Positions 2,833 through 64,000 of a stretch of 64,000 nucleotides of DNA are shown piece after piece. The notes under the pieces were generated by a model that worked only from the letters and a program-made list of their open reading frames with translations, was not told where the DNA came from and made no database searches. Source of the stretch: Apium graveolens (Eukaryota > Streptophyta > Magnoliopsida > Apiales > Apiaceae). The DNA is taken from the NCBI RefSeq assembly GCF_009905375.1, contig NC_133657.1, positions 3,038,001-3,102,000 on the forward strand. Direction: 5' to 3'. The translations under genes were made by a program, and so were the position numbers. Every line of letters begins with the position of its first letter. Position 1 is the first letter of the stretch.

Positions 2833-2943
2833 CGAGGTAATCTTTTTTCTTGAGATTTTCTTTAAAAAATAGAAACTGCATTGACATCCTACTCAAATTT
2901 GATCACATTTGCTTCAGCAAGAATAATTATCCGCCATTTTTAT

Positions 2944-3296
2944 GCATCGATGAAATAATTTTTCCATCATTTGTACGCTTTGGTGAAAAACCTTTTCGCC
3001 ATTCGAATGCTTTGATGACAACAACTTTTTCATCGATTTTATGCTTTGAATAACAACTTTTTCTCCATTCATATGCTTTGGTGACAACAATTTTTTTGCC
3101 AATTTTAATGCTTTGGCGAACAACTTTTTCGCCATTCGATGATTTGGTGACAACAACTTTTTTGCTAATGTTATGCTTCGGCGGATAACTTTTTCGCTAT
3201 TCTTTGCTTTGGCGACGACAATTTTTTCACCCACTTTAATGCTTTGGCGAACAACTTTTTCGCCATTTTATGATTTGGCAAAAAAAATATTTTAAT
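2944..3296. repeat. 33-bp minisatellite, about 10 units with dimeric order
   Basis: The word GCTTTGGTGA or a close variant starts at about 2977, 3009, 3043, 3075, 3110, 3141, 3175, 3206, 3241 and 3272. Spacing alternates between 31-32 and 34-35 bp, so the array has a dimeric unit of about 66 bp. Each unit has GCTTTGGYGA, then ACAACTTTTT, then GCCATT or a variant. One minus-strand frame stays open through most of it (2914-3234) and repeats KKLLSPKH-like residues, as expected when a unit length is near a multiple of three. Confidence 0.85.
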
Positions 3297-8965: not shown

Positions 8966-11900
8966 TTAATTAACATTCCTTTTATAATTATGATAGAATC
9001 CAACAGAATTCTGCATGTGAACCTGCAAAAATGAGAACATATCACTATTATTTCCATCTTTCTCTAAACAATCCAGCACCTTCCTAACATACTCAAAATC
9101 TCGCCCATAAAGATGACAAGCTGAGGCTGCTTTGTAAGTTAGAAGCTGCATATCACCTGTTGACATTGTAACAGATCCATAAGTTAATATAACAAGACAG
9201 ATGAAAATGAAAGGATTAATACAAGTCAAAGCTGTTCTAGACTAAATCTTAACGTTCAATGACTTCAGTTAGCTTGTTCTTTCACACAACTTGAGGCAAA
9301 TAATAAGTTTGCAGATCTTACTTGCCAAATATTCTGTACTTAAAGATAGATGTGAAATGATACCTGCTTCTAATTCTGACACAAGTATACTTCGGCTGAA
9401 GTGACGGGTCTGCCACCATCTGCAACGCAATATCCAGTCCTTACCCATAACACTGTCAACAACTATAACTGACTTTCTATTGAAATTCCTCGATTGCTCT
9501 TCCAAGATTTCATTATTACCAGCAAAACAAGTTGATATTCTGTCTTCTTCACTCAAAGACAACTTAAGGAAGCAAGAAGCGAACTCTTTCCACATGTTGC
9601 GTTCTGCATATGTAGCATCTAAGTGCAAGGCTACCATCTCCAACAGTTTTTCAGCACTATAATCCCCTGTAATCAGGAGCACGTCAGATTTCTTTTCTTT
9701 CCAAGTAAAAATACGAGGCCGTGACAAAACAAAATCCTTGCTCGAAACCATGTATATGATAGATTGTTATACTTGGAGACTCGTTCTTTATCTTTGTAAG
9801 TTTACACACTAAAATGTAACTTGACAATACACTTAAATAAAGTTGAAAGTAATCATCTTTATTTTTGAAACCATCTATTGTTTATGTAAATAAAAATCTC
9901 AAAATTCTTGTTAAAAACAATAAATCTTTTACAACAAACAATATCACTCCAAAAGTACCCTTTGTCTTGGAGAGCTCTATATTATTTTGTGTAGGTATAA
10001 GGGAGAGGGTCCAAAAATCAAGCTAACCTAAAATAAATACAGCAGGCTAGCAACAAAGAAAACAACTAACCAGATAAACCTGTATATCACAAAGAAATGA
10101 TAAATGGACCGGTCACACTATCATATTATTAATTCAATACTCAAAAACGTTTAACAGTTGTTGGAGAATTAAAAAGTTAGATGAATCATACCCTGTCGAT
10201 GCATACATAGAAGTCTTGTCAAGGAGTGTGTACATGTTGGATCTTTCTTCAGAGCATCCTCGAAGCATGTTGAAAGATAATTGTAGTTGTTGCTATCAAA
10301 ATGCTCCAAAAGACTCGCTTTCAATCTGAAACCATCATAGAATAAGCATAAAATTATGAAACATTATCTTTCACTACAATTGGTTGCAAGTCTGTGACAA
10401 AAATGGCTACTTCTTAAAGGTTTTACAATTTTATGATAGAAATGGCTACTTTTAGAGGTATTAGAAAAACCAATTTAATTTGAAGGAGGGGCAATTGCAA
10501 TTTAAATTTAACTGTCATTTTTAAAAATGAAATATAAATTAGGGAATGAGAAATCTCTACATAAACTGTCTTAATCAGAAAACTTTATAACAAGCAAAAA
10601 CGAACAAGTATTTTTGAAACCACTAAGCCTACATAAATCACATCATCTAGCACCACCACAGACAATTTACACCATGCTTTTGTAAGAAGCAATGACAAAG
10701 CTTGTAGTGCGACACTGTTATTATGCTTATACTTGTCATCTGTTATCCACGGTTATATGCATCAAGATTCAAGAACATACTTATCATAATCTCTTGTTTA
10801 CCTCAAACATTTGGCTTTTATAAATATGAAAAGAAAAGATTCAACATAATTCAATCTGTTACACATATGAGAACTGAAATTACCTTGCATACAGTGTTGT
10901 ATCTGAACAAGTAAACTTTTCAACTTCATTCATAGCCTCCTTGACTTTATCTCCCAGAAGCAGCATCTAGATAACAAAGTTGCTTCAGAACTAAAAGTGA
11001 ACTTCAATTTTTTGAAAGAAACAAAATATGCATGCTAGGCCTAGGACATAATTCGACCCACCTAAATATTTCTTTTCTTTACCAAATTCATGCAATTAAT
11101 ATTTTAAAATATATGTATAATATCTACGACTATGAACTATTCATGGTAGAAAAAGAACTAATTTCCATACTCAAAAGGATTGTGGAAAGAACCAAGAAGC
11201 ATGGACAACATCAGAATATTAGCTCAGTTAAAGATGTTTTGCGTGTCGGAGGTCCCTAGAAAAACTACAAGCATGTATATACTCCTTCCATCTCAACTTG
11301 AAGATCCTTATGTGTTACTCTTATGCCTTCCAACAATTTCATGCGCTCCCCTACAATCTCGTTTTCTTTCAACTTTATTACATCTTTAATATAGGCAATA
11401 AAATGTGCACCGTGAATAAATCTCAACGAAGTTCTAGCTTCCACACAACTTAAGCGTATTATTAAACAATTAATTGTGTTAAACAATTAATTGTGTTAAA
11501 CAATTAATCATAATAGTAATACGATATATGAAAGAGCATTTTCACAAGGACACCCCAAAAAGGAGGACTTGGAATGAACAAAGTATCATATTCTCATGAC
11601 AACATGGTAACTAATTGTACCGATAATCACAAGCATATAACAAGATACTTCAAGTAATATAATCTCGGTACCGATCAAGCAAAATAGATAAATTAAAACT
11701 AAAGTAACAGAAATGATGTTGTGAAGGAGATAAAAATTTTGTAACAGTATGTTTTATCATTTATACAAAAAAAGGTATAGAAGAATGAATGCTTTGAACA
11801 ATTTTATAAATCACAGATATATGTTTTAGTACCTGTACCAAAGGAAACAAGGCCTCGAGCGTTGGAGGGGTTGAATCAAGTGCAGCACGTAAATACTTCA

Positions 11901-15845: not shown

Positions 15846-18510
15846 ATGGGTTGGTACAGACGGAGCCCTGAAGAACATGACTTATACAAGCCTCGTGAAT
15901 GTCCTCAATACACATGTATTATTTCGTTACCTATGTATATGATTTATATGTATGTCTATGTATGATTTTGAGATCATGGTTTGTTTGTATTAAAGTGTAT
16001 ATAGGTTTAATAATGTTAGAGAATCATGTTTATATGAGTTTTATAATGTCTAGAGTTTGATTTTGTTATTTCAGTGTTTATATACTTGAATTTTAGGGTT
16101 TTCGATTCCACTTTAGGTATAATGTTATTATTTGTCTTCGATATTAAATTAATATCTCGATATAGTGAAAGCCCCAATTTTGATGTTCAATTTATATATT
16201 ATTCTACATGTCGTAATGTTCGTTATATTTTGGCAGCCCCTGAGTATTTTACCATTAAACTTAACTATGAATGTGAAATGGAGAGTGGTCCAAACAGTTT
16301 TGTTGGTGGTAGTATTACGTATTTTGATGACTATAGTATAGATGAAATCAATATGTTAGATCTTGAACAAATAATGAATGAGTTAGGGGAATGTGGAGGT
16401 TATCATAAATATTGGTATAGTTTTCCAGGGACTGATATGGAGAGGGGTCAATTTGTCTTGGATATGATGAAGAACTGATGTTAATGTGCACAATGAATAC
16501 CCACCAATATATTCAAATGTATGTTGTTGTCATCCCACCATTAACTAGTTCCCAACCTGAATTAAACACACAAAATGTAGATATTGAGTATATTGTGGAA
16601 CCACAAAGAGAGGCAACCCCTATAGTTGAGGATGACAATCTGTTTAGCCAAGATGAGGTAAATGTTAGGGAGTTTGAATTTGCGTGTAGTACACAAGCGA
16701 AAATTAGACAGGAGGAGGAAGCTAGAGAATTATTTGAAGATGAATTTGGTGATGAATTTGCTGATGAATCAGATGGTGAGAGTGATGAAATGTACTATCC
16801 TGAATCAGAAGATAGTGATGAAGGAAGCTTTCACTCTGACAACTCCAACAAAGATGACAGTGATGATGACCTGCTTTTTGATGAAAATGTTGATGATTTA
16901 GGTGCTAGTGATAAGAGATTCCATGCTGAAAAAGGTCACCAAGGAGATCAGTTTGATAATGACCTAGATGGGGTTGATAGTGAGCATTCTAGTGTTTATG
17001 AAGGTAGTGATGATGAAAGAATGGATGGGAATACAAATGATGAAGATCAGCCTAAAGGGTACCCTGTGTACAATGATGAGGCAGATGTTAGTCCAGTTTT
17101 TGAGTTGTCCATGTGTTTCAGAGATGCAAAAATATTCAGAGAGGCAGTTAAAAAACATGCAATCATGGAAATGAGGCCTATAGTGGCATCAAGGAACTTT
17201 GGAAGGAAAGTACAATATACTTGTGAACCTCCATGCCCCTGGAAGATTTATGCTTAACCAGCTGGAAAGACTTCAACTTACCAGATAAAGATATTCAATC
17301 CAAAACATACATGCATGCCTACTTTTCACCAGAAGCAAATTAATAGTGCATGGATTGCAAAGTACTATGAGAAGGAGATCAGAATGAATCCCTCCTGGTC
17401 AGGCAATGCCTTCCATCAAAAAATTGTCAATGATCTGAAATGTCATATTAGCAAGCATGCTGTATATAGAGCAAAGACAAGGGCTCTCACGAAGATAAAT
17501 GGAACACATTCTGAGCAATATAGTCAGGTCTGGAAATATGGTCATGAATTGAAGAGAGTGCTTCATGAGACAACAGTAAATATATTAATTGAGAATCCAG
17601 AACCAGGTGCTGAAAGGGATAGGTTTATGAGAATGTATGTGTGCTTAGGCCCACTCAAGAAGGCATTTTCTGAAAGTTGCAGGAAGATAGTGGTCCTTGT
17701 TGGATGCCACCTCAAGGGACCCTATGGAGGTCAACTCCTGGCAGCTATTGGCATTGATGTAAATGAGGGAATGTATCCAGTGGCATGGGCTGTGGTGGAG
17801 GCTGAGAATATAGACTCATGGACTTGGTTTTTGCAGTTTCTTTGCCAAGATATTATGATCCTAATTGATAGGGAATGGACTTTTATTTCTGATAGGTAGA
17901 AGGTACAACTTTTGTTATTTATTTTTGGCACTATAATTTTGTTATTTATTTTTTCTTTCTCCAAATATTCCAGGATTTGATCAATGCTTTCAAAATCGTG
18001 GTTCCCCAAGCTAAACACATATTTGTGTTATGCACCTATTCCAAAATATTCACAAGGAACACAAGGGCATATCACTCAGACATTTGTTATGGAAAGCAGC
18101 TAGGGCTTCCACAATTTGGGAGTTTAATTTGCACATGAATGATATGAAGGAGGTAATATTTTAACTTGTTTGTCATCTTTATTTTAACATATTCCATATC
18201 TAAATGTATTAATATTTTTGTTAGATTTCACCTAAGTGTTATGACTGGCTAATGCAAAATCCAAGAGAACAATGGTCAAGGTCAGCTTTTAGAACAACTT
18301 TCTCCAGTAATATGTTTGTAAATAATCACCGTGAGGTGTTCAACTCAAGCATTAGGAAATTTAGGGATCTCCCCATATTAACCGTGTTCAAACAAATACA
18401 TATTGCAATCACGAGGAGGATTCGGATCAGAAGAGATAAAATGAAAGATATGGAACTTGTTAAATGCCCTGGTGCACAGAAAAAGTTGAACAAGTAAGTC
18501 TTCAACTAAC
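15846..18510 (+). pseudogene. Mutator-like (MuDR-type) transposase relic
   Basis: The segment follows the layout of plant MULE transposases. An N-terminal PB1-like part (16220-16470) has FVGGSITYFDDYSIDEI. An acidic linker (about 16650-17050) follows, then the MuDR DNA-binding part (DAKIFREAVKKHAIMEMRPI, RKVQYTCEPPCPWKIYA) and the transposase core (KIVVLVGCHLKGPYGGQLLA, YPVAWAVVEAENIDSWTWF). After two apparent introns (about 17904-17970 and 18153-18224) comes NNHREVFNSSIRKFRDLPIL. Damage: single-base shifts near 16470-16495, TAA at 17255-17257, TAG at 17897-17899 where the family has SDRQKG, and Val in VLVGCHLKG where the first catalytic Asp is expected. The zinc-finger end is missing because the sequence runs into a copia relic at about 18.5-18.6 kb. 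No TIRs were found. A short frame from ATG 15846 may be its 5' exon. Confidence 0.82.
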
Positions 18511-28020: not shown

Positions 28021-30303
28021 GGGTGTCTCCCGCAAATTTTTACCTGACATTAAGTCATTTTGCCCTATAATATTTTAATGAAAAATCTGTAAATATAAAC
28101 AACTTCAACTTTATTGTGAATAACAATATATCTATATTATTATTTTAAATATATATATATATATATACACATTATGAATTTTAAAAAAATAAAGAGAAGT
28201 ATAAAATATAAATTTAAAATAATTATAGAACAAATTTTTTAATTTGCCAATAACTACTAAAAATTTACCTTTTACAGGACAACTGCTCTCCCAATTGCAA
28301 ATCCACGCAGCACAGGTCTCCAAACCCTCACTTTGATCATTCCATCGGCATACCTCCATGTGCTTACCCATGTAACAGATTTTTCAGTTGTGTATTCTAT
28401 TAGTTAACTCCTCATCTCTCTCTGTATAACTGCTATCGATATTTATGTGTAATCAACATGTACATGTGTCGATTACAACCGATTTGATTACCAAATACAA
28501 TCTCTCCGTGTGTAATCTTTGTCTATCTTGTGTTATACTTGATAATACTTGTAATATGCTTCTGTCAATTTCAAAATATATATGTTATACTTGTGTATAC
28601 TTGTGTGTTTAATCTTTTATATTTGTGGGCTTAAAGTTTGGTACTTTTTTTTATCAAAGTATAGGTTAAAATATCAAAAGAGAATAGTTTGATACTTAGT
28701 ACATTTTTTGTTTGATGTATATGTAACTATGCTAATTTGGAGGAAGTTGCTCACGTGTTTGTTTTTGTAAATTTAATGGGGTTGTGCAATTGTACACTGA
28801 GAGAGGAAGAACAATTGGTCACATATAATGTCATAGGATTGAATACAACAATAACTCCACATTCAACAAGACCTTAACTTCCTTATACATATTAGTATTA
28901 GTAGATGAGAAATTTTCCCCAAGCAAAATTTGTGTCTCCGCCTTTTACAGGTCCGAGAAGAAGATTCTCAATACTCATACGAGTGAACGTCTTGTGAAAC
29001 TATGAATGTCCCTTGTGGCACTATTGGTTCTAATTAGATAAAGAATATCTTGGGAGACACCTTAATGAGAGGACTAAGGAGTGTGATTAATTTTAAGAGC
29101 TGGGATAGGGGAAAAAATAGCCCAGCGTAAATGAAAACCTATTTTACCTAGCTCAGATTTTTGTTTAAACAGCCATATAAAATAACTCACATTCAAAAGA
29201 GAAATTTACATATGCTACCATGAAGCCAGCTTAGCAAGACAAGTTTGGACAGCAATAAAGACCATAATGGATATTTTAGTTCAAAAGGTCTCTTTAGAGT
29301 TAAAGTTTTCCAGTTGCTAATTAATTTAATAGTATTTCTAATCTTACCTCAGGATTTTGTGCAGCCGTACTAGGAACTGGACATGGAAAATTCCAAAACG
29401 CTCTTTAATGACAATAACAAGATTAAATATGATTAAATATGGTGGTGTAACTAGATTTAAGATAGCCGAGAAGATGGTAAAATATGATAATTTTAATGAT
29501 ATTAAATATAGTCTGCCAGTAGTACTACTTTTAATGGGATTGAATTCTTGCACTAATAAGTCATTATATAGTATATTTAAATCTGAATAACCTATTTAAA
29601 ACAGAGAGTTTCTATTTATCTATCTAAAAACACCCGATGTGAAATGCAGCAGCCATTGGATCTCGTTCATAATTGTATCATATTAGCCAACTAATAGTTA
29701 TCAATAGCTGAGAAATAACATATGTTCAGTTAGGTTTCCAAGTCCCTGAGGATTAGCTCAAGTTAAGTGTGTTGAAATCTATACCTGTAATTTAGTGTGA
29801 AGTTGAGAGAATCTAAAGCTGAATCGTTCAGAAAATCATTTAAATCTTCTAGCCTGATTGCTAATTAACACCTTATCAAAATATGTTGTGGTAGTATCAA
29901 ACTATATCTTTGTTTGAGGTACTTAATTCTTCACAAGACTGAAAATTGGATCAAGTGCATAAGATAATATCATACTAGGCATCATTGACCAGAGGACATT
30001 ATGTGCTGACCATTAAAAATAAAGTTACGGATGAAAGATACAATTAACCAAGGTTCAAAATACAACATTACACTATAGATTCCTTTTTTTTTTTGAAAAA
30101 AAAAGAAGAAGTTGCAAACACTTTATTATGTGGGTGTCAAATCATTTTATATGTTAAACATCTCTTTCTCTATCAATATTAGTGGCATTAACATCTCGAA
30201 CAATATCGCGAAAGTTTTTAAATGTCCTATATATGGAACTTGTTTTTTAAGTATGTTAGTTGCAATACAAATGCACCTGTATCTATATAGGTATTGTGAT
30301 ATC
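28021..30303. other. CACTA promoter / leader region, no gene seen
   Basis: AT-rich with (TA)n near 28150-28166. Several open frames (28132-28371 minus, 29344-29590 on both strands) have no domain. The TNP2 gene starts at 30304, so this stretch probably holds its promoter and possibly an untranslated leader. Confidence 0.4.
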
Positions 30304-33300
30304 ATGGAATTTTTCTCGGACCGTACTTGGATGTCACGACGGAAGTCAAATACTCAGATAGGTGCTACGACTGAATTTAGAGCCGGCTGTGAAGTGTTTC
30401 TCGATTATGCGTACAGTCACCCAAAAATTGTGAATGAAAGGAATCAGATTCGATATCCATGTTGGAAATGTAAAAACAATAATTATCTAGACAGAGATGT
30501 GGTAAACTACCATTTACTTGTTGATGGGTTCATGAGAAATTACGAAGAATGTTGGGGGGCACATGGGCAGAAAAGAGATGGTGGCTTCACATCTAATTAT
30601 TCGGGCAGTAGTACTACTTATCATATGGATGAAATGGTTCATGATATTGCAGGGCAAGATTTTGATTGGGAACAAGTTAGAGAACAACCTATGAATTCTG
30701 ATGCCAAGGCCTTCACAAAGTTGTTAGAAGATGTGAGGGAGCCGTTGTGGCATGGTTGCACCAAACACACTAAATTATCTGCAGTGGCGACACTACTGAA
30801 CATCAAGGCTGATCACAACATGAGCCATGAGTGTTTTGAGTCCCTCCTGAAGGCTATTAAGAGTATGTTGCCCGATAATGAAAAATTACCAGATAATTAT
30901 TATTATTGCAAGAAGATGGTGAAGAAGTTGGGTCTTGGATACCAGAAGATTGATGCATGTTTCAATGATTGCATGCTATTTTATAAGGAAAATGAAAAGA
31001 TTACAAAATGCACGGTTTGTGGTCATGATCGGTTTAAGCCAAATAAAGAGGGAGTGATTTCAAAAAAATCATCTATACCGTACAAAATTCTAAGGTATTT
31101 TCCAATAACTTACCGGCTTAAAAGATTGTACATGTCCTCAAGAACAGCTGAACATATGAGTTGGCATGCGAAATCTTCGTCTAAAGATGGAGAACTAAAT
31201 CATCCAGCAGATGGGCAGGCTTGGAAAGATTTTAACAAAACACATCCTCAATTTGCATTGGAACCAAGAAATGTAAGACTTGGTTTGTCCACCGATGGTT
31301 TTAACCCCTTTGGCCACTCAGCTGTTCCGTACTCATGTTGGCCCGTTATTGTTACTCCTTATAATCTACCTTCCTGGATGTGTATGAAACAACCATACTT
31401 ATTTCTCTCTCTCATGATTCCTGGTCCTACAAGCCCCGGAAAGAACTTAGATGTTTACTTGAGGCATCTAATAGATGAGTTGAAAGTACTGTGGAAAGAT
31501 GGAGTACAAACATGGGATGTTTCAATGCAAACAAATTTCAACCTTAGGGCAGCGCTTATATGGACTATAAACAACTTCCCAGCCTATGGTATGTTATCTG
31601 GATAGAGCACACATGGGAAGTTGGCTTGTCCGTATTGTATGGAGCATACAAAGTCTTTCACTCTACAAAAAGGTAGAAAACCTTGCTGGTTTGATTGCCA
31701 TCGTCGGTTCTTGCCTGCAGATCACCCATTTTGAAAAAATAGAGAAAACTTTAGGAAAGGTAAAGTGGAAAATGATAAGCCTTTACCATGACTGTCAGGA
31801 ACGGAGACACGATCTCCTGTGATGAGACTTCCGATCGTCCTATTTGGTAAGAATGATAAGAAAATTAGCGGATTTGGTGAATCACATAATTGGGTTCGGA
31901 CAAGTATCTTCTGGGAATTGCCTTATTGGTCTACAAATTTGATTCGTCATAATCTAGATGTAATGCATGTCGAGAAGAATGTGTTCGATAATGTGTTTAA
32001 AACCGTGATAAATGTTACAGGAAAGACAAAAGATAATGATAAGGCGCGTTTGGACTTGAAAGATATTTGTAAGCGTCCTGCATTAGAGCTTCGGTAGTCC
32101 TCTAATGGTAAGACTGTCAAACCGCATGCAAGGTACACTTTATCCAAAAAGCAAGTTGAAGATGTGTGCACGTGGATTAAGTCCCTGAAACTTTCAGATG
32201 GATATGCGTCAAACATTGCAAGGTGTGTGACGGATAAGACACCGCATGGGAAACTGAAAGGGATGAAGAGTCATGACTGTCATGTGTTCTTGGAAAGACT
32301 CTTGCCTATAGCATTTCGAGATCAGCTTTATAAACCAATATGAGATGCTTTGACGGAACTTAGTCGTTTCTTTAATGACTTATGTTCAAAAACATTAAAT
32401 GAGAAGGACATGTCCATACTTGAAACAAATATCATAGAGATCATATGTAAACTGGAAAAAATATTTCCACCTGTTTTTTTTGACTCTATGGAGCATTTGA
32501 CAATACATCTTCCCTACGAAGCTCGTGTTGGGGGTCCGGTTCAATATAGGTGGATGTACCCTTTCGAGAGGTTGATGGTAATGCTTAAGAGGGCAGTCAA
32601 GAATAGAGCTTGTGTTGAGGGTTCGATATGTGAGGCATACAGTTTTAGTGAGGTATCTATGTTTGTCTCAGACTATTTCCCGGACGAACTCTTGACAAAG
32701 GCCAACCGCGTCTCAAGAAATGATGATGGGGGAAATGTTGAACTAAATGGTAGGCTTTCTATATTTGGTCTATCAGGTCATGCTTATGGAAAAGAAAAAC
32801 GTATTTTCCTATCTGAGACAGATTTACATGCTGCACACACATATATTCTTCTCAATTGTGAGGAGATTGACGAATTTGTGAGGTACACATCACATAAACT
32901 CTTAAATTTATAACCAAATCAGCCTTTCAATGACATGTGATTTATATTTTAATATTTTAATATCTAGATTATATGATGACGAGTTAAAAGTGAAGTGTCC
33001 TGGAATAAATGATAAAGATATTCAAATCAACCGTTATAAAGAATTTTCACGTTGGATAAAGGACAAAGTAAGTTCAATTTAATTAAGCACAATACGAACA
33101 ATTTTTATTAACTATTTACTTAAATTAATTTAATAATATGATAAATTTGTAGGCTTTGACTGAGGGGTCTACACTTCCAGCTAATGTACAAAGCTTAGCT
33201 ATGGGACCAGACATGGACCAAGTAAGTCGTAATGGTTACAAAGTAAATGGTTATGAATTTCATACCAAGGCGTATGGGCATGGTAAAAGGACTATAAACA

Positions 33301-33889
33301 CGGGCTTGTGTTTTTAGGAGATTGTTACAATGAGCTTAGTCATGCCTTTTACGGGGAGTTGGAGGAAATTATAGAGTTGTCATACAAGGGTACATACGGG
33401 GGTTATATTAACTTGTTCAAGTGCCGGTGGTTCGACTCGGAAAAAGAGATATGTGTTGATAGACATGGAATTGTTGATATTGACGTCCACAAGTCTGCTT
33501 ACTCCAACGAGCCATTTGTTTTACCAACTCAAACAAAACAAGTATACTACACTCCTAGTCCTGGTAAAAGGAGGGATAGGCCGCCTTCAGATTGGCAAAC
33601 TATAATTCATACTCCCGCACGCAGATGTGAAGAAGTAGTTAATGGGGAATTTTACCAAGAGGAGATGCTTCGTAGGTCGGATGTAATAAATGTGGACGAT
33701 AATGAAGTAATTCAGTTAGATGGTGGAGATGAACCACATGAAATAGATCCCGAGTTAATATTGGTGCTAGATGATATTGATACAGAAGAAGAAGAATTAT
33801 TGATCGACACTGACTCCGAGTCTGAGTCTGAAGGAGAAGATGGTTATGAATCTAAGCAAGATGATTCTGATTCTGAAACTGAGACTTGA
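30304..33889 (+). pseudogene. CACTA TNP2-type (TNPD) transposase, near-intact but with stops
   Basis: Exons are 30304-32882, 32968-33067 and 33153-33889, with GT-AG introns in matching phase. The start MEFFSDRTWMSRRK and IRYPCWKCKNNNYLDRDVV are the N-terminal zinc-binding part. CTVCGHDRFKP, RLGLSTDGFNPFG and CMKQPYLFLSLMIPGPTSPG belong to the tnp2 transposase core. LPYWSTNLIRHNLDVMHVEK follows, then YRWMYPFERLMVMLKRAVKN and EAYSFSEVSMF (DUF4218), YGELEEIIELSY and NLFKCRWFD (DUF4216), and an acidic tail. In the long first exon one frame holds throughout, broken only by five stops: 31603 (TAG), 31732 (TGA), 31789 (TGA), 32095 (TAG) and 32341 (TGA), each one transition from TGG, CGA or CAG. A one-base deletion near 33310 shifts the last exon. 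Confidence 0.92.
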
Positions 33890-43294: not shown

Positions 43295-43480
43295 ACTTCT
43301 TCCATCCCCAACCGAGATATTTCATATTTCTTCCCCCTACAGGGGGTATTCCAGATTTCTTTCATCCCCTACCAGGGTAGTTTATATTTCATCCATCCCC
43401 TACAGGGGGTATTCCAGATTTCTTCCATCCCCTACCAGGATATTTTAGATTTCTTCCATCCCCTACGGGGGTATTCCATT
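43295..43480. repeat. 31-bp minisatellite, about 6 units
   Basis: Units TTCTTCCATCCCCTAC followed by AGGGGGTATTCCAGAT recur with CATCCC anchors at about 43313, 43363, 43394, 43426 and 43457, a spacing of 31-32 bp. One unit near 43334 lacks the anchor. Confidence 0.85.
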
Positions 43481-54116: not shown

Positions 54117-55705
54117 ATGGCGCAATTACCGCCCAAAGCGCCCACCATGACCCATCACAATTGGCCCAACACATTCCCTAATTACCACCACATGATGCCG
54201 CCCTCCTCCGCCGCACAACCACCTTATTGGGTCGACGAGTTCCTTGATTTCTCGTCGTCAAGGCGGAATTCACATCGTCGTTCGGTCAGCGATCCTATTG
54301 CATTTGCCGAAGTTCAATTCGGAGAAGATTGCAATAATAATAATAATAATATTGGATTTGATCGTTTGGATGATGAGCAGCTTTGTAACATGTTTGCGGA
54401 TGAAGTTCCGCCCACGGTGACATCAACCTCTAATCCGTCAACATCTTCGGAACGTAACAGCGAAAATGAGCAGGAGAAGACAATGCTGATTCCTCAGATG
54501 CCCAAGAAAGAGCCTGGTGAGGTGGATAGCGAATGCGAGCTGGAGATCAAACCAGGACATACCTTTTCTGCCGGTAAAGATGACGGTGATACAATCATTG
54601 TTGATCCGAAGAGAGTCAAACGGTACGCAATTCTTCAATTTAGATAAAATTATAATTCATGCATAATATGCATGAGGAGTTGCTTTACTTACAATCAATT
54701 GCAGATTTCACTACTATACCGATATCAATATAATCAACAAATATTTAAATTAAATAAATGGGGAGGGTGGACTCGGACCCGAGTCTGTCCCTAAATCGAG
54801 CTTTGATACCATATGTTAAATAACCATTTTATCTAAAACTCAAGATGGCAGAGGAATGCCCGACATGATCTTTTACTGTTCAACAAATCTATTTTAATAA
54901 GAATCAATTAACATAATTATATAATTATATTGTTTGTAACAGAATTCTAGCAAATCGGCAATCAGCACAGAGATCTCGAGTAAGGAAGCTGCAGTATATA
55001 TCAGAGCTGGAACGGAGCGTCACCTCATTACAGGTACATTATGTTCTTATACATCACAGTTACAATCAATTTAATATTTTGGCATGTAACTGAAATGAAT
55101 AATAAAACTGCAGACAGAGGTATCTGCATTGTCACCAAGAGTTGCATTTTTAGACCATCAAAGATTGATTCTCAACGTGGACAACAGCGCTCTTAAACAA
55201 CGCATTGCAGTTCTGGCTCAAGACAAACTCTTCAAAGATGGTAAGAATTCCTAGTTTGCATGCATGTGTCAGAGTCCATAACGTTGAATAACCGGTTTCT
55301 CCAAAATCTTAAGATGTACCAGGATGTCGTTACTTAATATGATATCAGATCTTAATTTTTGAAGGGGTTTTAAAAGTTTAGTCTCATACATTCATTTATT
55401 AATAACTCAATATATTTGGTTTTTCTGAAATATTTTATAGCCAATTTTGTGCATGAAGCTTTTCCATTAATAATTGGGGCACAGTGTTTTAATACGAAGA
55501 TTTGGCATATATGCATATTAAATTCGAGTAGCTGATGGTTTAAATATAAAATGCAGCCCATCAAGAGGCATTAAAGAAAGAGATAGAGAGATTAAGGAGA
55601 GTGTATCAAGATCAGAGTCTGAAGAAGATGGACCACAACGCCACCGTCGAACCCCCACCGGAAGCGGCGGCAGCTGTCACCGACGAGCATGAACAACAAC
55701 AGTAA
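54117..55705 (+). CDS. group E bZIP transcription factor, bZIP34/bZIP61-like, four exons
   Basis: Exons 54117-54622, 54943-55033, 55114-55240 and 55557-55705 join in phase into 290 codons, all introns GT-AG. The N-terminus MAQLPPKAPTMTHHNWPN and SSRRNSHRRSVSDPIAFAE match Arabidopsis bZIP34/bZIP61. The bZIP lies at residues about 165-235: basic region N173-x7-R181 (NRQSAQRSR), then heptad leucines 191, 198, 205, 212, 219, 226 and 233. Pro207 sits in the third heptad (ALSPRVAFL); in group E factors this proline is known to block homodimers and favour partners from other bZIP groups. A run of asparagines (about residues 73-78) comes from an AAT microsatellite. Nuclear transcriptional regulator; the Arabidopsis homologue bZIP34 acts in pollen development. 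The start is the ATG matching the family; an overlapping ATG lies 4 bases upstream. Confidence 0.92.
54760..54880 (-). repeat. tRNA-like / retroelement-derived repeat in bZIP intron 1
   Basis: On the minus strand ATGGTATCAAAGCTCGATTT recalls the Met-tRNA primer-site phrase TGGTATCAGAGC, and GGGTCCGAGTCC is close to a Pol III B box. The flank GTTAAATAACCATTTTATCT resembles GTTGAATAACCGGTTTCTCC in intron 3 (about 55283), so two copies of the same dispersed repeat may sit in this gene. SINE or copia leader are both possible. Confidence 0.4.
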
Positions 55706-56731
55706 TTAGTACGGATGGACAAGATGAGATGTGAATGTATCAATGTGTGTGATTGAAGTTGTGGTACACTTTGTATTGCTTAACCTGCGCACTCACGTGA
55801 TGTGTTCTTTCGTTCTCATCTATGGTGTGAGTCAAGTGGACCCCACCATCTGACAAGTTCCTGCAGACTTGAGTGTGATGACAGTGACGCGTGGACTGTT
55901 GGAAGGGGATAGGTGATTAAACATAATTTAACATTTATTTAAATGTATCTTATTCCTAAATATTTGTTAGATATTTGATATTTCTTGGGGGCAATTGGGT
56001 TAATTGGTTTATTTGCATTTATTTAAGTTTTACTACTAGTAGTAGTACGACTCTCCATCTAATTAAAATTTTTATTTTTTATTTGGGGGTTATTAAGAAT
56101 TAAGATCTTGATTGCAGATTTTAGAAATTGAAACTATTCGGTTAAGATGTCGATTTGTGATTTATCGGACGATTTTTAATAAATCGAATGATTTGACAAC
56201 GATTTATCGACAATTTCTGAAAAATCCACCCATTTCTCTAGGAGAAGTTAAGATTGATTAACTTAATTGAATTAGGATTGGTGGGGTATTTTATTCATGT
56301 GGGAGTGTGGGCTTGTTGTTTCTTTGTAATGCATGTAAAATTCTAAACATGTATGGGTAGGGTAAAGATAATGCTAACGTTTGATGCCATTCCTCATTTT
56401 ACTTTGCTTTTGCGTGTTGGGGGTCACTGTTGAATGAGTTGTATGACTTTATTTATTTTTTCTTGCTTTCGCAATTGTAAAAATGAAAATCAAGTTGAAT
56501 TCCAAGTTGTATTTTGATTTCTTTTTGTGTTATTAAAAAGTTCATACTTCAGCGGTAAGAAACGTAAAGCAGTTATATGTTGTGCGGATATTGATGGCAA
56601 CCCATATGATATTCTTCCAACTTGCTTAGCCTTCCCCCATTGTCTATCCATTAAAGTAGTTATTGTTGTGAAATGTGGGTAGTAGTTTTACATTTTCAAG
56701 TCAATTTGATCCAAAATTTAAGTAGACCAAT
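55706..56731. other. downstream region of the bZIP gene
   Basis: Contains the 3' UTR (no clear AATAAA near the stop) and AT-rich intergenic DNA with (TAG)n at about 56035-56046. No gene is seen. Confidence 0.5.
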
Positions 56732-57313
56732 GTTGTAAGCGCACAACGAATGTGTTCCCTTTCGAGAGAGTTTTTCGAGACACTTTGAATCACTCAAAAT
56801 GATTAAGAGATGGATGATATATGATCATCCAAATTCCAAAATGAGCCTCTTAGTAGTGAAAAATTGTGGGAAAATAGAAAGTTCCACGTTGATTTTGCAA
56901 ATGAGCATACATGGTTTTATATAGCCAAACACTTATGTAGTGTTCAAATGTGTTACTTATGTATTGTTGCAACACCTACGTGCGTGCGCAGAGGTACAAA
57001 TCTGGGGCTTTCGAGGGACAATCTGAGGCTTGCGAAACCTTCGAACTTGCCCGCGTGTGCGACGTGCAGAACAAAAATGTAGCAGAAAATTGGTCCGAAT
57101 AATTACAGACTAGTTTTGCTAAGTTTAATTTCCACTGGGCTTGGGCTTTTAAAAGTTTAATTCGTTTTGACTACGGATTATAATTACTGATTTGATGTGA
57201 TAATAATCAGATTCAATTACGGATTTGATTTATTAACCGACTGATTAATTAACGCGTTTTAATTAATTACACATGGAGTAGCGCACACGTTTCCTCGAGC
57301 CTATATAATAACG
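56732..57313 (+). mobile_element. probable U3 part of the LTR heading the tandem copia array
   Basis: TGTTGTAAGCGC at 56732 is a plausible LTR start. The segment runs into CTATATAATA, a TATA box at 57301, and then directly into unit 1. It is not repeated between the later units, so only the first unit keeps a full promoter. The left limit is inferred. Confidence 0.45.
57301..57310 (+). promoter_or_regulatory. TATA box of the copia LTR before unit 1
   Basis: CTATATAATA lies 4 bases before the point where the 2022-bp repeat unit begins. Transcription would start near 57330, inside the repeated part. Confidence 0.6.
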
Positions 57314-57700
57314 TATTAGGCTTAGGGTTATTTATTCGTTCGATATGCAACACACAGCCGCCTCTTATACAAAAGCCCTACTCTCTCTATTCTGGTGATA
57401 GTTTCTTACTCCGTTCTAATTCGCCGAAGGTGCTGTTCACGTAACATCGTCGTCTTCTCATTTTATCCCGGGAGGCTAACGTCTCACACATACGGTGAGG
57501 GTCGTAATAGCTTTAAGGAGACAGTTATACGACTGGACTCGAGAACTTCTCCTTCATATCCTTTTTGTTGATTTACATTATTCGCACACATGTACATTAT
57601 ATGTATTAATCGCAGATTGTAACTACAATCTTAAAGCTATTATTATTTATTATTTGTGACTAATACATCTGTCTTTGCCTGTTTGTTGAGTAACAAATCT

Positions 57701-58876
57701 ATGGAGAATAAAACCGTGAATAATAAGATGAACACGACGGCTGATCCCAACGCACAGATCTTTGGATATGATGGGGTTCACCAGCAGGCGCCTAAGCCTA
57801 ACGCACAGATCGTAGTATCAGATGGAGGTCAGACACTTGTTGGACATGTTCCTTCGGGACATGTGCATGTGGGACACACTGTTATTGGACAGTTTGGTGT
57901 TCCTTTTGGATAGACGTCACCAGGATTCGTTCCTTCGATTGTACATGCAATGCCTACTGGTGTATATACATTTGTAGTATAGACGCACGTACCGACTGTC
58001 ACACCTGCGGTGCCTGTTGCACCTACTATGCCAATTGTGACTGCTGCACACGCTGATAAACCCGAGAAATTCAACAAAATGAACTTCAAATATTGGCAGT
58101 AAAAGATGCTTTTTTATCTGACCACGTTGCATCTGGACCACTTTCCGAAGGAAAAGATGCCATTGCTCACCGGTGAGAGCAACACGCTGACTCTGTATGC
58201 TGTGGATGCTTGGAAGCACCCGGACTACATATATCGGAATTATGTACTGAACTGCTTGGCTGACTCGTTGTATAACGTGTATAGCTCGAAGACAACACCT
58301 AAGGCCTTATGGGAGTCACTTGACCATAAGTATAAAACCGAGGATGCTGGGGCAAAGAAGTGGATTGTTGTCCGCTTTCTTGACTATAAGATGGGAGATT
58401 CTAAGACTGTTATTAGTAAGATGCAAGGACTACAAGTGATCATTCATGAAATTCATGATGAGGGAATGATCATTAGTGAATCTTTCCAAGTTGCTGCTAT
58501 AATTGAAAAGCTGCCACCGGTATGGAAAATGTTCAAGAACTACCTTAAGCACAAGTGAAAGTAGATGACCATGGAGGATCTGATTCTCAAACTTCGTATT
58601 GAAGAAGACAATAAAGGATCTGAGAAGCAAGTGAATGTTGCTATTGAGAAGGCAAACATGGTGGAACATGGTGAAAGCTCTAAGGCCAAGAAGACCAGTT
58701 CTGGTAAAGGGGCAAAACTGGCACCCAAGGGAAGGATTTCGAAGTCGAAATTTCAAGGAAAGTGCTACAACTGTGATAAAGTGGGTTATAGGTCTTCTGA
58801 CTGCAAGAAACCCAAAAAGGCCAATAAGAAGAAAGAGGCAAAATATGGTCGATCATATCTCCAGGGAGATGGGTGA
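57701..58876 (+). pseudogene. copia gag of unit 1
   Basis: One frame from ATG 57701 carries a Gly/His/Val-rich leader (VGHVPSGHVHVGHTVIGQFG), then the copia gag core: FNKMNFKYWQ, LYAVDAWKHPDYIYRNYVLN, SKTTPKALWESLDHKYKTED, KMQGLQVIIHEIHDEGM and EKLPPVWKMFKNYLKHK. The zinc knuckle CYNCDKVGYRSSDC has the right spacing but Tyr instead of His. In-frame stops: TAG 57911, TAG 57980, TAA 58100, TGA 58556 and TAG 58562. Each is one C-to-T change from CAG, CAA or CGA. An extra A near 58845 shifts the frame before the protease. Confidence 0.9.
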
Positions 58877-59335
58877 CATAGACCTCTGTGCTACGGTCTC
58901 TGAAGTGAACCTGGTTGGCTCTAATCCGCGTGAAAGGTGGATTGATACTGGCGCTACTAGGCATATTTGCTCATACAAGGCGATTTTCTCTAGCCTCAAA
59001 GCTTTCGATGCTGGTTAGAAGCTTTATATGGGGAATTCAGCGACTTCTATTATTAAAGGTGAAGGCACGGTGATTCTGAAGATGACCTCTGGGAAGAATC
59101 TGACTTTGAAGAATGTACTGTATGTCCCTGATATTTGAAAGAACCTTGTGTCTGGTTCTTTGTTGTATAAGAACGGATTTCGTATTATAATTGAGTCAAA
59201 TAAAGTTATTTTCTCTAAGAGTGGTATGTTTGTAGGCAAGGGCTATGTAACCGATGGGATTTTTAAGCTCAATGTTATGTCCATTAAGGACGATAATGAA
59301 ATGAAGAATTCTTCTGCTTACTTGCTTGAGTCTCC
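58840..59335 (+). pseudogene. copia protease and GAG-pre-integrase stub of unit 1
   Basis: In the frame offset from gag: ERWIDTGATRHICSYKA, whose DTGA is the aspartic protease active site, then [25 protein letters not shown] and LVSGSLLYKNGFRIII. Stops at 59016 (TAG) and 59136 (TGA) again fit CAG and CGA. The frame ends within the GAG-pre-integrase (YLLESP), where the next unit's LTR sequence begins. Confidence 0.88.
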
Positions 59336-61357
59336 TATTAGGCTTAGGGTTATTTATTCGTTCGATATGCAACACACAGCCGCCTCCTATACAAAAGCCC
59401 TACTCTCTCTGTTCTGGTGATAGTTTCTTATTCCATTCTAATTTGTCGAAGGTGCTGTTCACGTAACATCGTCGTCTTCTCATTTTATCCTGGGAGGCTA
59501 ACGTCTCACACATACGGTGAGGGCCGTAATAGCTTTAAGGAGACAGTTATACGACTGGACTCGAGAACTTCTCCTTCATATCATTTTTATTGATTTCTAT
59601 TATTCGCAGACACGTACATTATATATATTAATCGCAGATTCTAACTACAATCTTAAAGCTATTATTATTTATTATTTGTGACTAATACATCTGTCTTTGC
59701 CTGTTTGTTGAGTAACAAATCTATGGAGAATAAAATCGTGAACAATAAGATGAACACGACGGCTGATCCTAACGCACAGATCTTTGGATCTGATGGGGTT
59801 CACCAGCAGGCGCCTAACCCTAACGCACAGATCATAGTATCTGATGGAGGTCAGACACTTGTTGGACATGTGCCTTCGGGACATGTGCATGTGGGACACA
59901 CTGTTATTGGACAGTTTGGTATTCCTTTGGGATAGACGTCACCAGGATTCGTTCCTTCGATTGTACATGCGGTGCCTACTGGTGTACATATATCTGTAGT
60001 ATAGACGCACGTACCGACTGTCACACCTGCGGTGCTTGTTGCACCTGCTATGCCAACTGTGACTGCTGCACACGCTGATAAACCCGAGAAATTCAACAAA
60101 ATGAACTTCAAATATTGGCAGCAAAAGATGCTTTTTTATTTGACCACGTTGCATCTGGACAGCTTTCCGAAGGAAGAGATTCCATTGCTCACTGGTGAGA
60201 GCAACACATTGACTCTGTATGCTGTGGATGCTTGGAAGCACCCGGACTACATATATCGGAATTATGTATTGAACTGCTTGGCTGACTCGTTGTATAACGT
60301 GTATAGCTCGAAGACAACACCTAAGGCCTTATGGGAGTCACTTGACCATAAGTATAAAACTGAGGATGATGGGGCAAAGAAGTGGATTGTTGTCCGCTTT
60401 CTTGACTATAAGATGGGAGATTCTAAGACTGTGATTAGTAAGATGCAAGGACTGCAAGTGATCATTCATGAAATTCATGATGAGGGAATGATCATTAGTG
60501 AATCTTTCCAAGTTGCTGCTATAATTGAAAAGCTGCCACCAGTATGGAAAATGTTCAAGAACTACCTTAAGCACAAGTGAAAGTAGATGACCATGGAGGA
60601 TCTGATTCTCAAACTTCGTATTGAAGAAGATAATAAAGGATCTGAGAAACAAGTGAATGTTGCTATTGAGAAGGCAAACATGGTGGAACATGTTGAAAGC
60701 TCCAAGGCCAAGAAGACCAGTTCTGGTAAAGGGGCAAAACTGGCACCCAAGGGAGGGATTTCGAAGTCAAAATTTCAAGGAAAGTGCTACAACTGTGATA
60801 AAGTGGGTTATAGGTCTTCTGACTGCAAGAAACCCAAAAAGGCCAATAAGAAGAAAGAGGCAAAATATGGTCGATCATATCTCCAGGGAGATGGGTGACA
60901 TAGACCTCTGTGCTACGGTCTCTGAAGTGAACCTGGTTGGCTCTAATCCGCGTGAAAGGTGGATTGATACTGGCGCTACTAGGCATATTTGCTCATACAA
61001 GGCGATTTTCTCTAGCCTCAAAGCTTTCGATGCTAGTTAGAAGCTTTATATGGGGAATTCAGCGACTTCTATTATTAAAGGTGAAGGCACGATGATTCTG
61101 AAGATGACCTCTGGGAAGAATCTGACTTTGAAGAATGTACTGTATGTCCCTGATATTTGAAAGAACCTTGTGTCTGGTTCTTTGTTGTATAAGAATGGAT
61201 TTCGTATTATAATTGAGTCAGATAAAGTTATTTTCTCTAAGAGTGGTATGTTTGTAGGCAAGGGCTATGTAACTGATGGGATTTTTAAGCTCAATGTTAT
61301 GTCCATTAAGGACGATAATGAAATGAAGAATTCTTCTGCTTACTTGCTTGAGTCTCC
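59336..61357 (+). mobile_element. array unit 2 (2022 bp)
   Basis: Same layout as unit 1, with gag from ATG 59723 and protease DTGA near 60969. It keeps CAA at 60122-60124, so the long gag frame 60032-60580 is open. The shared stops, the Tyr in the zinc knuckle and the frameshift before the protease are all present. Confidence 0.93.
60032..60580 (+). pseudogene. open gag core of unit 2
   Basis: A 182-codon open stretch covers the gag core from MPTVTAAHADKPEKFNKMNF to FKNYLKHK. It ends at the TGA shared by all units (60578-60580). Confidence 0.85.
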
Positions 61358-63379
61358 TATTAGGCTTAGGGTTATTTATTCGTTCGATATGCAACACACA
61401 GCCGCCTCCTATACAAAAGCCCTACTCTCTCTGTTCTGGTGATAGTTTCTTATTCCGTTCTAATTTGTCGAAGGCGCTGTTCACGTAACATCGCCGTCTT
61501 CTCATTTTATCCCGGGAGGCTAACGTCTCACACATACGGTGAGGGCCGTAATAGCTTTAAGGAGACAGTTATACGACTGAACTCGAGAACTTCTCCTTCA
61601 TATCATTTTTGTTGATTTCTATTATTCGCAGACACGTACATTATATGTATTAATCGCAGATTCTAACTACAATCTTAAAGCTATTATTATTTATTATTTG
61701 TGACTAATACATCTATCTTTGCCTGTTTGTTGAGTAACAAATCTATGGAGAATAAAATCGTAAATAATAAGATGAACACGACGGCTGATCCTAACGCACA
61801 GATCTTTGGATCTGATGGGGTTCACCAGCAGGCGCCTAACCCTAACGCACAGATCATAGTATCTGATGGAGGTCAGACACTTGTTGGACATGTGCCTTCG
61901 GGACATGTGCATGTGGGACACATTGTTATTGGACAGTTTGGTATTCCTTTGGGATAGACGTCACCAGGATTCGTTCCTTCGATTGTACATGCGGTGCCTA
62001 CTGGTGTACATATATCTGTAGTATAGACGCACGTACCGACTGTCACACCTGCGGTGCCTGTTGCACCTGCTATGCCAACTGTGACTGCTGCACATGCAGA
62101 TAAACACAAGAAATTCAACAAAATGAACTTCAAATATTGGCAGCAAAAGATGCTTTTTTATCTAACCACATTACATCTGGACCGCTTTCCGAAGGAAGAG
62201 ATGCCATTGCTCACTGGTGAGAGCAACACATTGACTCTGTATGCTGTGGATGCTTGGAAGCACCCGGACTACATATATTGGAATCATGTATTGAACTGCT
62301 TGGCTAACTCGTTGTATAACGTGTATAGCTCGAAGACAACACCTAAGGCCTTATGGGAGTCACTTGACCATAAGTATAAAACTGAGGATGATGGGGCAAA
62401 GAAGTGGATTGTTGTCCGCTTTCTTGACTATAAGATGGGAGATTCTAAGACTGTGATTAGTAAGATGCAAGGACTGCAAGTGATCTTTCATGAAATTCAT
62501 GATGAGGGAATGATCATTAGTGAATCTTTCCAAGTTGCTGCTATAATTGAAAAGCTGCCACCAGTATGGAAAATGTTCAAGAACTACCTTAAGCACAAGT
62601 GAAAGTAGATGACCATGGAGGATCTGATTCTCAAACTTCGTATTGAAGAAGACAATAAAGGATCTGAGAAGCAAGTGAATGTTGCTATTGAGAAGGCAAA
62701 CATGGTGGAACATGTTGAAAGCTCCAAGGCCAAGAAGACCAGTTCTGGTAAAGGGGCAAAACTGGCACCCAAGGGAGGGATTTCGAAGTCGAAATTTTAA
62801 GGAATGTGCTACAACTGTGATAAAGTGGGTTATAGGTCTTCTGACTGCAAGAAACCCAAAAAGGCCAATAAGAAGAAAGAGGCAAAATATGGTCGATCAT
62901 ATCTCCAGGGAGATGGGTGACATAGACCTCTGTGCTACGGTCTCTGAAGTGAACCTGGTTGGCTCTAATCCGCGTGAAAGGTGGATTGATACTGGCGCTA
63001 CTAGGCATATTTGCTCATACAAGGCGATTTTCTCTAGCCTCAAAGCTTTCGATGCTGGTTAGAAGCTTTATATGGGGAATTCAGCAACTTCTATTATTAA
63101 AGGTGAAGACACGGTGATTCTGAAGATGACCTCTGGGAAGAATCTGACTTTGAAGAATGTACTGTATGTCCCTGATATTTGAAAGAACCTTGTGTCTGGT
63201 TCTTTGTTGTATAAGAACGGATTTCGTATTATAATTGAGTCAGATAAAGTTATTTTCTCTAAGAGTGGTATGTTTGTAGGCAAGGGCTATGTAACTGATG
63301 GGATTTTTAAGCTCAATGTTATGTCCATTAAGGACGATAATGAAATGAAGAATTCTTCTGCTTACTTGCTTGAGTCTCC
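61358..63379 (+). mobile_element. array unit 3 (2022 bp)
   Basis: Same layout. Private changes include TAA at about 62798-62800 in KSKFQGK (CAA in the other units), which ends the gag frame 62609-62800 before the zinc knuckle, and RNYV changed to WNHV near 62277-62288. Confidence 0.93.
62054..62602 (+). pseudogene. open gag core of unit 3
   Basis: A 182-codon open stretch equivalent to that of unit 2, differing at a few residues (for example HKKFNKMNF and LQVIFHEIHD). It ends at the shared TGA. Confidence 0.85.
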
Positions 63380-64000
63380 TATTAGGCTTAGGGTTATTTA
63401 TTCGTTCGATATGCAACACACAGCCGCCTCCTATACAAAAGCCCTACTCTCTCTATTCTGGTGATAGTTTCTTATTCCATTCTAATTTGTCGAAGGTGCT
63501 GTTCACGTAACATCGTCGTCTTCTCATTTTATCCCGGGAGGCTAACGTCTCACACATACGGTGAGGGCCGTAATAGCTTTAAGGAGACAGTTATACGACT
63601 GGACTCGAGAACTTCTCCTTCATATCATTTTTGTTGATTTCTATTATTCGCAGACACGTACATTATATGTATTAATCGCAGATTCTAACTACAATCTTAA
63701 AGCTATTATTATTTATTATTTGTGACTAATACATCTGTCTTTGCCTGTTTGTTGAGTAACAAATCTATGGAGAATAAAATCGTGAATAATAAGATGAACA
63801 CGACGGCTGATTCTAACGCACAGATCTTTGGATCTGATGGGGTTCACCAGCAGGCGCCTAACCCTAACGCACAGATCATAGTATCTGATGGAGGTCAGAC
63901 ACTTGTTGGACATGTGCCTTCGGGACATGTGCATGTGGGACACACTGTTATTGGACAGTTTGGTATTCCTTTGGGATAGACGTCACCAGGATTCGTTCCT
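63380..64000 (+). mobile_element. array unit 4, cut by the window edge
   Basis: Carries the LTR end, leader and first part of the gag frame (from ATG 63767) up to the shared TAG at 63977, and continues beyond 64000. Confidence 0.93.

Follow-up and report, generated by a model that had tools for sequence, protein, structure and literature searches.

Among the closest described counterparts of the tandem array analyzed here are CRM1TR and CRM4TR, maize tandem repeats derived from centromeric gypsy elements (PMC3648361). Their authors proposed a deletion from the untranslated region (UTR) to the downstream long terminal repeat (LTR), followed by amplification mainly through gene conversion (PMC3648361). 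The array in question consists of 2022-bp units cut from a Copia retrotransposon of celery (Apium graveolens) and begins near the right end of a window of 64,000 nucleotides (C11:3038001-3102000; forward strand of contig NC_133657.1, assembly GCF_009905375.1). The maize repeats share with the celery array monomers that start inside an LTR, run out into the element and stem from one parental element, as well as an illegitimate junction, few loci, homogenization and recombinant monomers. The maize repeats are LTR-UTR sequences of Ty3/gypsy elements with 187 and 39 full-length monomers in (peri)centromeric positions, whereas the celery array lies about 1 kb from a gene and is made of six Copia LTR-gag-protease units, with the integrase-bearing parental copy still around it.

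Other retrotransposon-derived repeats are also comparable. The Sobo satellite of Solanum bulbocastanum also has a kilobase-sized monomer including LTR-retrotransposon sequence (PMC3648361, PMC8091179, PMC9659126), but this is a 4.7-kb composite monomer extending over ~360 kb rather than six copies of one fragment. The rye repeat E3900 (printed as E900 in the text) likewise contains gag-like LTR-retrotransposon coding sequence, but is listed as established satellite DNA, whereas the celery units form a six-unit series inside one element (PMC9659126). In the Ogre-derived satellites of Lathyrus sativus, short tandem arrays within the LTR element similarly precede longer ones; these subrepeats are short, lie in the 3' UTR beyond gag-pol and occur in many copies of the element (PMC7004042), in contrast to the celery repeat of a 2-kb fragment from the 5' part of a single dead copy. 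Head-to-tail retroelements for which unequal crossing-over is invoked are also known as tandem Cassandra arrays in various plants (PMC7215508) and as arrays of the terminal-repeat retrotransposon in miniature (TRIM) Wukong (PMC4528315). In Cassandra, however, the repeat is an LTR plus interior and neighbors share LTRs, while the celery units join protease to the middle of an LTR (PMC7215508). No paper on the celery locus was found in the literature searched; one may nonetheless exist. The array is thus of a kind already known, and what sets it apart is an unusually clean and legible record. In the retrotransposon-derived repeats described so far, how the array began has to be inferred from relatives of the parent; in celery, the parental copy still surrounds the array, which makes it possible to read the founding junction, the sequence of later events and one crossover.

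Self-alignment of positions 57314-64000 (window numbering, 1-64000; C11 numbering beyond the window) yields gapless matches at offsets of 2022, 4044 and 6066 bp with identities of 97.7, 97.3 and 96.5%. The window contains 3.31 head-to-tail units with a period of exactly 2022 bp, and the left edge is exact to the base at 57314, with the 110 bp upstream showing no likeness to a unit end. In the assembly, of which 60 kb to the right of the window were examined, the array comprises six units and ends past the window edge. Units 1 to 5 measure 2022 bp each, and unit 6 measures 2020 bp once a nested insertion is subtracted (Table 1). Each unit opens with the last third of a Copia LTR (314 bp at its 3' end) and continues with a leader of 73 bp, gag and a protease region; the gag start codon is at offset 388 in each of units 1-4. 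A search with unit 2 retrieved the Pfam domain Retrotran_gag_2 (3.5e-17), and a zinc-knuckle-like stretch without a Pfam match was recognized by eye in the gag of unit 1. The unit breaks off near position 24 of the 67-position gag_pre-integrs profile, and its protease end matches Pol_BBD below threshold only (7.7e-4; 20.2 bits, cut-off 27). The identity of the protease region is secured because the 66 residues at the end of unit 2 are 83-89% identical to the seven closest Copia polyproteins among 27 proteins found (85-89% for P0242-P0244, P0247 and P0248; 83% for P0245 and P0246). These polyproteins continue from ESP into NLW(H/Y)ARLGH of the pre-integrase segment, whereas the array units jump back into the LTR instead. 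A plasmid collection produced no matches. The sequence following the LTR (ATCTTAAAGC.., 57628-57645) occurs in the window units and again in L006, a dispersed copy (1805-1830). It does not resemble the usual initiator-Met primer site of plants, and the Copia family of the array may be primed by something other than initiator-Met.

The repeat starts inside the host element's own 5' LTR, since this LTR could be placed across position 57314. Upstream of that position, 10 of 30 dispersed loci match the window, and the match begins at 56660-56665 in six of these ten. An LTR contained in L037, at the 3' side of L006, aligns to the window from 56662 onward; its last letters are GACA, against TACA in the window. 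The preceding GTTAT (56659-56663) is a candidate target-site duplication. After the end of unit 6 (C11:3116832), the sequence runs straight on as in the dispersed elements (GAGTCTCC-TAATTTATGGCATGC, ESP-NLWHA) with no jump to an LTR. This continuation is 86-93% identical to all 30 dispersed loci. The alignment spans ~1.5 kb in 27 loci, which is as far as the retrieved sequences extend; it covers 529 bp for L001 and L002 and 236 bp for L003. It encodes most of gag_pre-integrs, the integrase core (rve), SH3_retrovirus and positions 1-131 of 244 of the reverse transcriptase (RT) profile RVT_2, and it is broken too, since integrase, SH3 and RT lie in three different frames. Homology to the dispersed elements stops within RT at about C11:3118372. 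A Copia-type gag and an integrase ahead of RT give the Ty1/Copia domain order. With a 5' LTR to their left and integrase and RT in colinear order after unit 6, all six units lie within a single 3'-truncated Copia element that retains its 5' LTR. In order, this element consists of the 5' LTR, the LTR part-leader-gag-protease segment in six copies, integrase and half of RT.

A preliminary description of this stretch had given a head-to-tail repeat of exactly 2022 bp in at least 3.3 copies, its left edge inside the window, built from a Copia gag-protease fragment with an LTR end. The self-alignment bears out the period, copy number and edge, and the gag domain, the polyprotein identity and the alignment of the LTR to dispersed copies bear out the origin. 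The same description saw only the left edge of the array in the window, which instead holds 3.31 of the six units. It also called the fragment devoid of integrase and RT, which is correct for the unit. The fragment is not detached from the rest of its parent, as we read the maize CRM cases to be, given the integrase and half RT that follow unit 6.

The 40-base junction between protease and LTR is identical in 40 of 40 positions at all five places where it occurs. In the assembly of 3,332,948,439 bases, a 27-mer of the junction with up to three mismatches found five matches, all in the array and all exact, and the reversed-pattern control found 0. Repeat counts from this pattern search are lower bounds, and its scope is this junction, with independently formed arrays of the family carrying other junctions falling outside it. 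The junction was absent from all 30 dispersed loci examined, the best agreeing in 27 of 40 letters, as half a junction would give. The two pieces that were joined are both preserved, the protease side after unit 6 (CCTA-ATTTATGG) and the LTR side before unit 1 (ACG-TATTAGG), and the joined form is CC-TA-TTAGG. The microhomology at the founding junction is hence 2 bp (TA), which, judged from the letters, resembles the product of end-joining or replication template switching. A 7-bp microhomology (TATTAGG), as the left edge alone would suggest, was ruled out because the natural downstream sequence shows a 2-bp overlap. A monomer taken wholly from one element, a start within an LTR and an illegitimate junction with this short overlap are also the traits of the CRM kind. 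With all five junction matches at one locus and the control at 0, a satellite elsewhere in the assembly was ruled out, and the array is a local tandem repeat at one locus in this assembly. The family itself is dispersed, with at least 39 copies that are 83-88% identical to unit 2, a lower bound as 39 of 1883 first-look candidates were scored. Two of these copies, L001 (C11:195576590-195581607) and L002 (195433423-195438440), lie 143 kb apart and give the same figures in the flank alignments, suggesting that the segment was duplicated in the genome or in the assembly; the two differ at one stop position at least.

The six units are graded in divergence. Units 2, 3 and 4 differ among themselves by 1.3-1.8%, unit 1 differs from this core by 2.7-3.3%, unit 5 by 3.3-3.7%, and units 1 and 5 differ from each other by 4.5%. 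Unit 6 is 4.7-5.5% away from every other unit, and six dispersed copies are 11.7-15.0% away from the units. With these six as outgroups (out of the 30 loci compared; three were used in trees), 176 sites were polarized, of which 128 changed in a single unit, 24 fall into two main shared patterns and 24 show other patterns. Derived states exclusive to units 2-5 occur at 12 sites, all in alignment columns 119-1052, and derived states exclusive to units 1-4 at another 12, all in columns 1117-1878; such a clean left/right split has a chance of 1 in 2,704,156 for one given order. Eight of the other-pattern sites fit the same scheme (five shared by units 1-5, three by units 2-4). A count free of polarity used the 33 sites at which the core matches one neighbor and is unlike unit 6 (88 sites listed, 55 dropped where the core equals unit 6). 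Up to nt 1034, 15 of 18 sites side with unit 5, and from nt 1099 on 15 of 15 side with unit 1. Trees of the half-units contain conflicting groups, with units 2-5 at 0.997 and units 1-4 at 0.996 (FastTree local support). Units 2-4 are chimeras of a 5' half from the unit 5 lineage and a 3' half from the unit 1 lineage, with the switch at nt 1034-1099. One unequal crossover leaves such a record, and chimeric units joining the 5' part of one neighbor to the 3' part of the other between older edges are traits of this process.

The element was probably dead before it multiplied. Two stops and one frameshift are common to all six units, so duplication probably followed the death of the element, and four other stops occur in three to five of the six units. 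At the two shared stops, 28 and 29 of the 30 dispersed copies are open, and the frameshift is missing in all 30. Spread of the stops between units by later homogenization would be a less simple account, because unit 6, the least homogenized, carries them too. Variable sites among units are spread about evenly over codon positions 1/2/3 (gag 39/32/39, protease 12/17/11), whereas those among dispersed copies are rich in third positions (gag 82/64/106, protease 26/17/37), which is why the units were probably not maintained for coding. At a rice LTR substitution rate of 1.3e-8 per site and year, if it holds for celery, selected pairs would place the split of unit 6 at ~1.9-2.0 million years (My) ago and the copying of the core at 0.5-0.7 My ago. 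At 7e-9, the same kind of selected pairs would give 3.5-3.7 My and 0.9-1.3 My, respectively.

We suggest that a duplication within a decayed Copia copy, followed by unequal recombination, explains the array, and we hold this account with good confidence. A Copia element would have inserted ~960 bp downstream of a bZIP gene and then decayed. A single illegitimate tandem duplication could have joined the protease end to a point in the element's own 5' LTR through the TA microhomology, creating two 2022-bp units, whose 2 kb of direct homology would have let unequal homologous recombination add further units. A misaligned crossover within nt 1034-1099 might then have combined the 5' half of a right-hand unit with the 3' half of its left neighbor and left the parents on either side ([1][5][6] -> [1][5'/1'][5][6]), after which the chimera was presumably copied into units 2-4 and a later LTR retrotransposon landed in unit 6. 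Several observations weigh against this account. Sixteen of the other-pattern sites do not follow from the scheme; they either group core units with one another or require back or repeated mutation, wrong polarity or further exchange. In the polarity-free count, three of the 18 sites of the 5' half agree with unit 1. The shared stops are not unique, as 2 and 1 of the 30 dispersed copies are also stopped there. The 3' LTR and the RT-RNaseH remainder were not found up to C11:3162000, so that LTR dating and the target-site duplication lack a 3' partner. The first step is unobserved, and the same dimer would arise if a copy whose protease had been joined to its 3' LTR by deletion recombined with an intact allele via the LTRs.

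This deletion-first start follows the first step proposed for CRM1TR and CRM4TR, deletion to a downstream LTR (PMC3648361). An internal deletion would join protease to the 3' LTR, the short copy would recombine with an intact allele, and later growth would be the same. By our own extension of that model, an LTR crossover with the intact allele yields a left unit and then a unit running into integrase, as observed. We consider it improbable, as a single duplication achieves what would here require two events and the presence of two alleles at the site, and the assembly search found the junction only in the array and no separate deletion copy. Plain duplication is simpler because integrase follows the last unit, and the celery array is a place where the two models can be weighed. 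A 2022-bp extrachromosomal circle, amplified by rolling circle and recombined back into the parent element, would keep period and junction just as exact, and circles are named as a possible route to tandem repeats (PMC3648361). It would predict a burst of units of the same age, but the units become less divergent from the edges toward the core, and the core units combine the two outer neighbors in the right linear order, which makes this route very improbable. Template switching during reverse transcription is also an unlikely origin, because the unit starts 12 bp past the first base of a putative TATA box (TATATAA), probably upstream of the RNA start. Gene conversion concerns a later step and overlaps with these alternatives. 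It would have overwritten the 3' half of unit 1 and the 5' half of unit 5 with core sequence, it would homogenize the core as well, and the authors of the CRM study prefer it for arrays near centromeres (PMC3648361). Two separate tracts would, however, both have to end in one 65-bp stretch of the 2022-bp unit, where one crossover needs no coincidence, and simple conversion alone adds no units. Conversion in place of crossover is therefore unlikely, though it keeps some weight.

An assembly artefact, with a single unit or a wrong unit number, deserves mention because 2-kb repeats can be mis-assembled from PacBio reads averaging 9.1 kb with an N50 of 15 kb. The celery genome paper reports 3.33 Gb, a scaffold N50 of 289.78 Mb, 78x PacBio coverage, a read N50 of 15,066 bp and 0.20% heterozygosity (PMC8051603). 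The units differ by 26-110 bases per pair (1.3-5.5%), far above that heterozygosity, and both flanks and the nested insertion are colinear, so that little credence is left for an artefact; the exact count of six is that of the present assembly. A true satellite with many arrays at many loci is the least credible reading. The head-to-tail order, exact period, constant monomer length and homogenized core are of satellite type, and a satellite unassembled in this genome would escape the junction search. The long many-unit arrays of a satellite, frequently present at numerous loci, are absent, however; there are six units, and the junction occurs five times in 3.33 Gb at one locus against a control of 0. 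The preliminary description had spoken of a satellite, which these counts do not support, and of a tandem repeat being born, which cannot be shown; the estimated age is ~0.5-2 My under the rice rate. It had also taken three to five units at one locus to mean duplication and many units to mean a satellite; six units at one locus exceed the range it gave and fall on the side of duplication. We raise as a tentative idea, on which we would not rely, that the array is a proto-satellite with its whole early history preserved, from one microhomology duplication through one chimera-founding unequal crossover to copying of the chimera. If so, unit number should vary among celery accessions, and the array could gauge how often satellite seeds grow or shrink beside genes. 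For the genome, the array is a local event that is probably neutral.

Table 1. Coordinates of the array, its host element and other features (window numbering unless given as C11).
Feature	Position	Strand	Remarks
5' LTR of host Copia element	56664..57627	+	964 bp, TGTTGTG...TACA; aligns to LTR ends of dispersed copies
TATA-like box TATATAA	57302..57308	+	putative; first base 12 bp before first repeated base (57314)
Unit 1	57314..59335	+	5' half more diverged, 3' half resembles units 2-4
Leader, unit 1	57628..57700	+	between LTR end and gag ATG
gag, unit 1	57701..58876	+	broken by stops
Protease-coding part, unit 1	58877..59335	+	frame differs from gag; unit end ..LLESP
Protease-to-LTR junction	59316..59355	+	again at 61338 and 63360; two more beyond window
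Unit 2	59336..61357	+	chimeric core unit
Unit 3	61358..63379	+	chimeric core unit
Unit 4, first 621 bp	63380..64000	+	remainder C11:3102001-3103401
Unit 5	C11:3103402-3105423		beyond window
Unit 6	C11:3105424-3106893, insertion, then on to C11:3116832		beyond window
bZIP61-like gene	54117-55705		open, four exons; Copia LTR starts ~960 bp after its stop
CACTA-type transposon remains	30097-33886		Transposase_21, Transpos_assoc, DUF4218, DUF4216
MULE transposase fragment	17258-17896		
Short tandem arrays	2932-3278 and 43297-43478		66/131-bp and 63-bp units
TAF RNA polymerase I subunit A homologue, piece	9272-9766	-	

Unit 6 is cut after about its position 1470 by a younger LTR retrotransposon of 9.38 kb (C11:3106894-3116277), which starts with TGTTGG, ends with TTTCA and is flanked on both sides by AGTGG. 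Two of its LTRs are 98.26% alike over 1667 aligned positions (22 mismatches), a divergence about equal to that between core units. The insertion has a three-LTR structure, in the order LTR, interior, LTR, shortened interior and partial LTR at the right end, with the single AGTGG target duplication outside. Upstream of the array, the spliced protein of the bZIP61-like gene is 99% identical at 97% coverage to AgCh_037836 of Apium graveolens, 93% to a Heracleum protein and 88% to a carrot protein.

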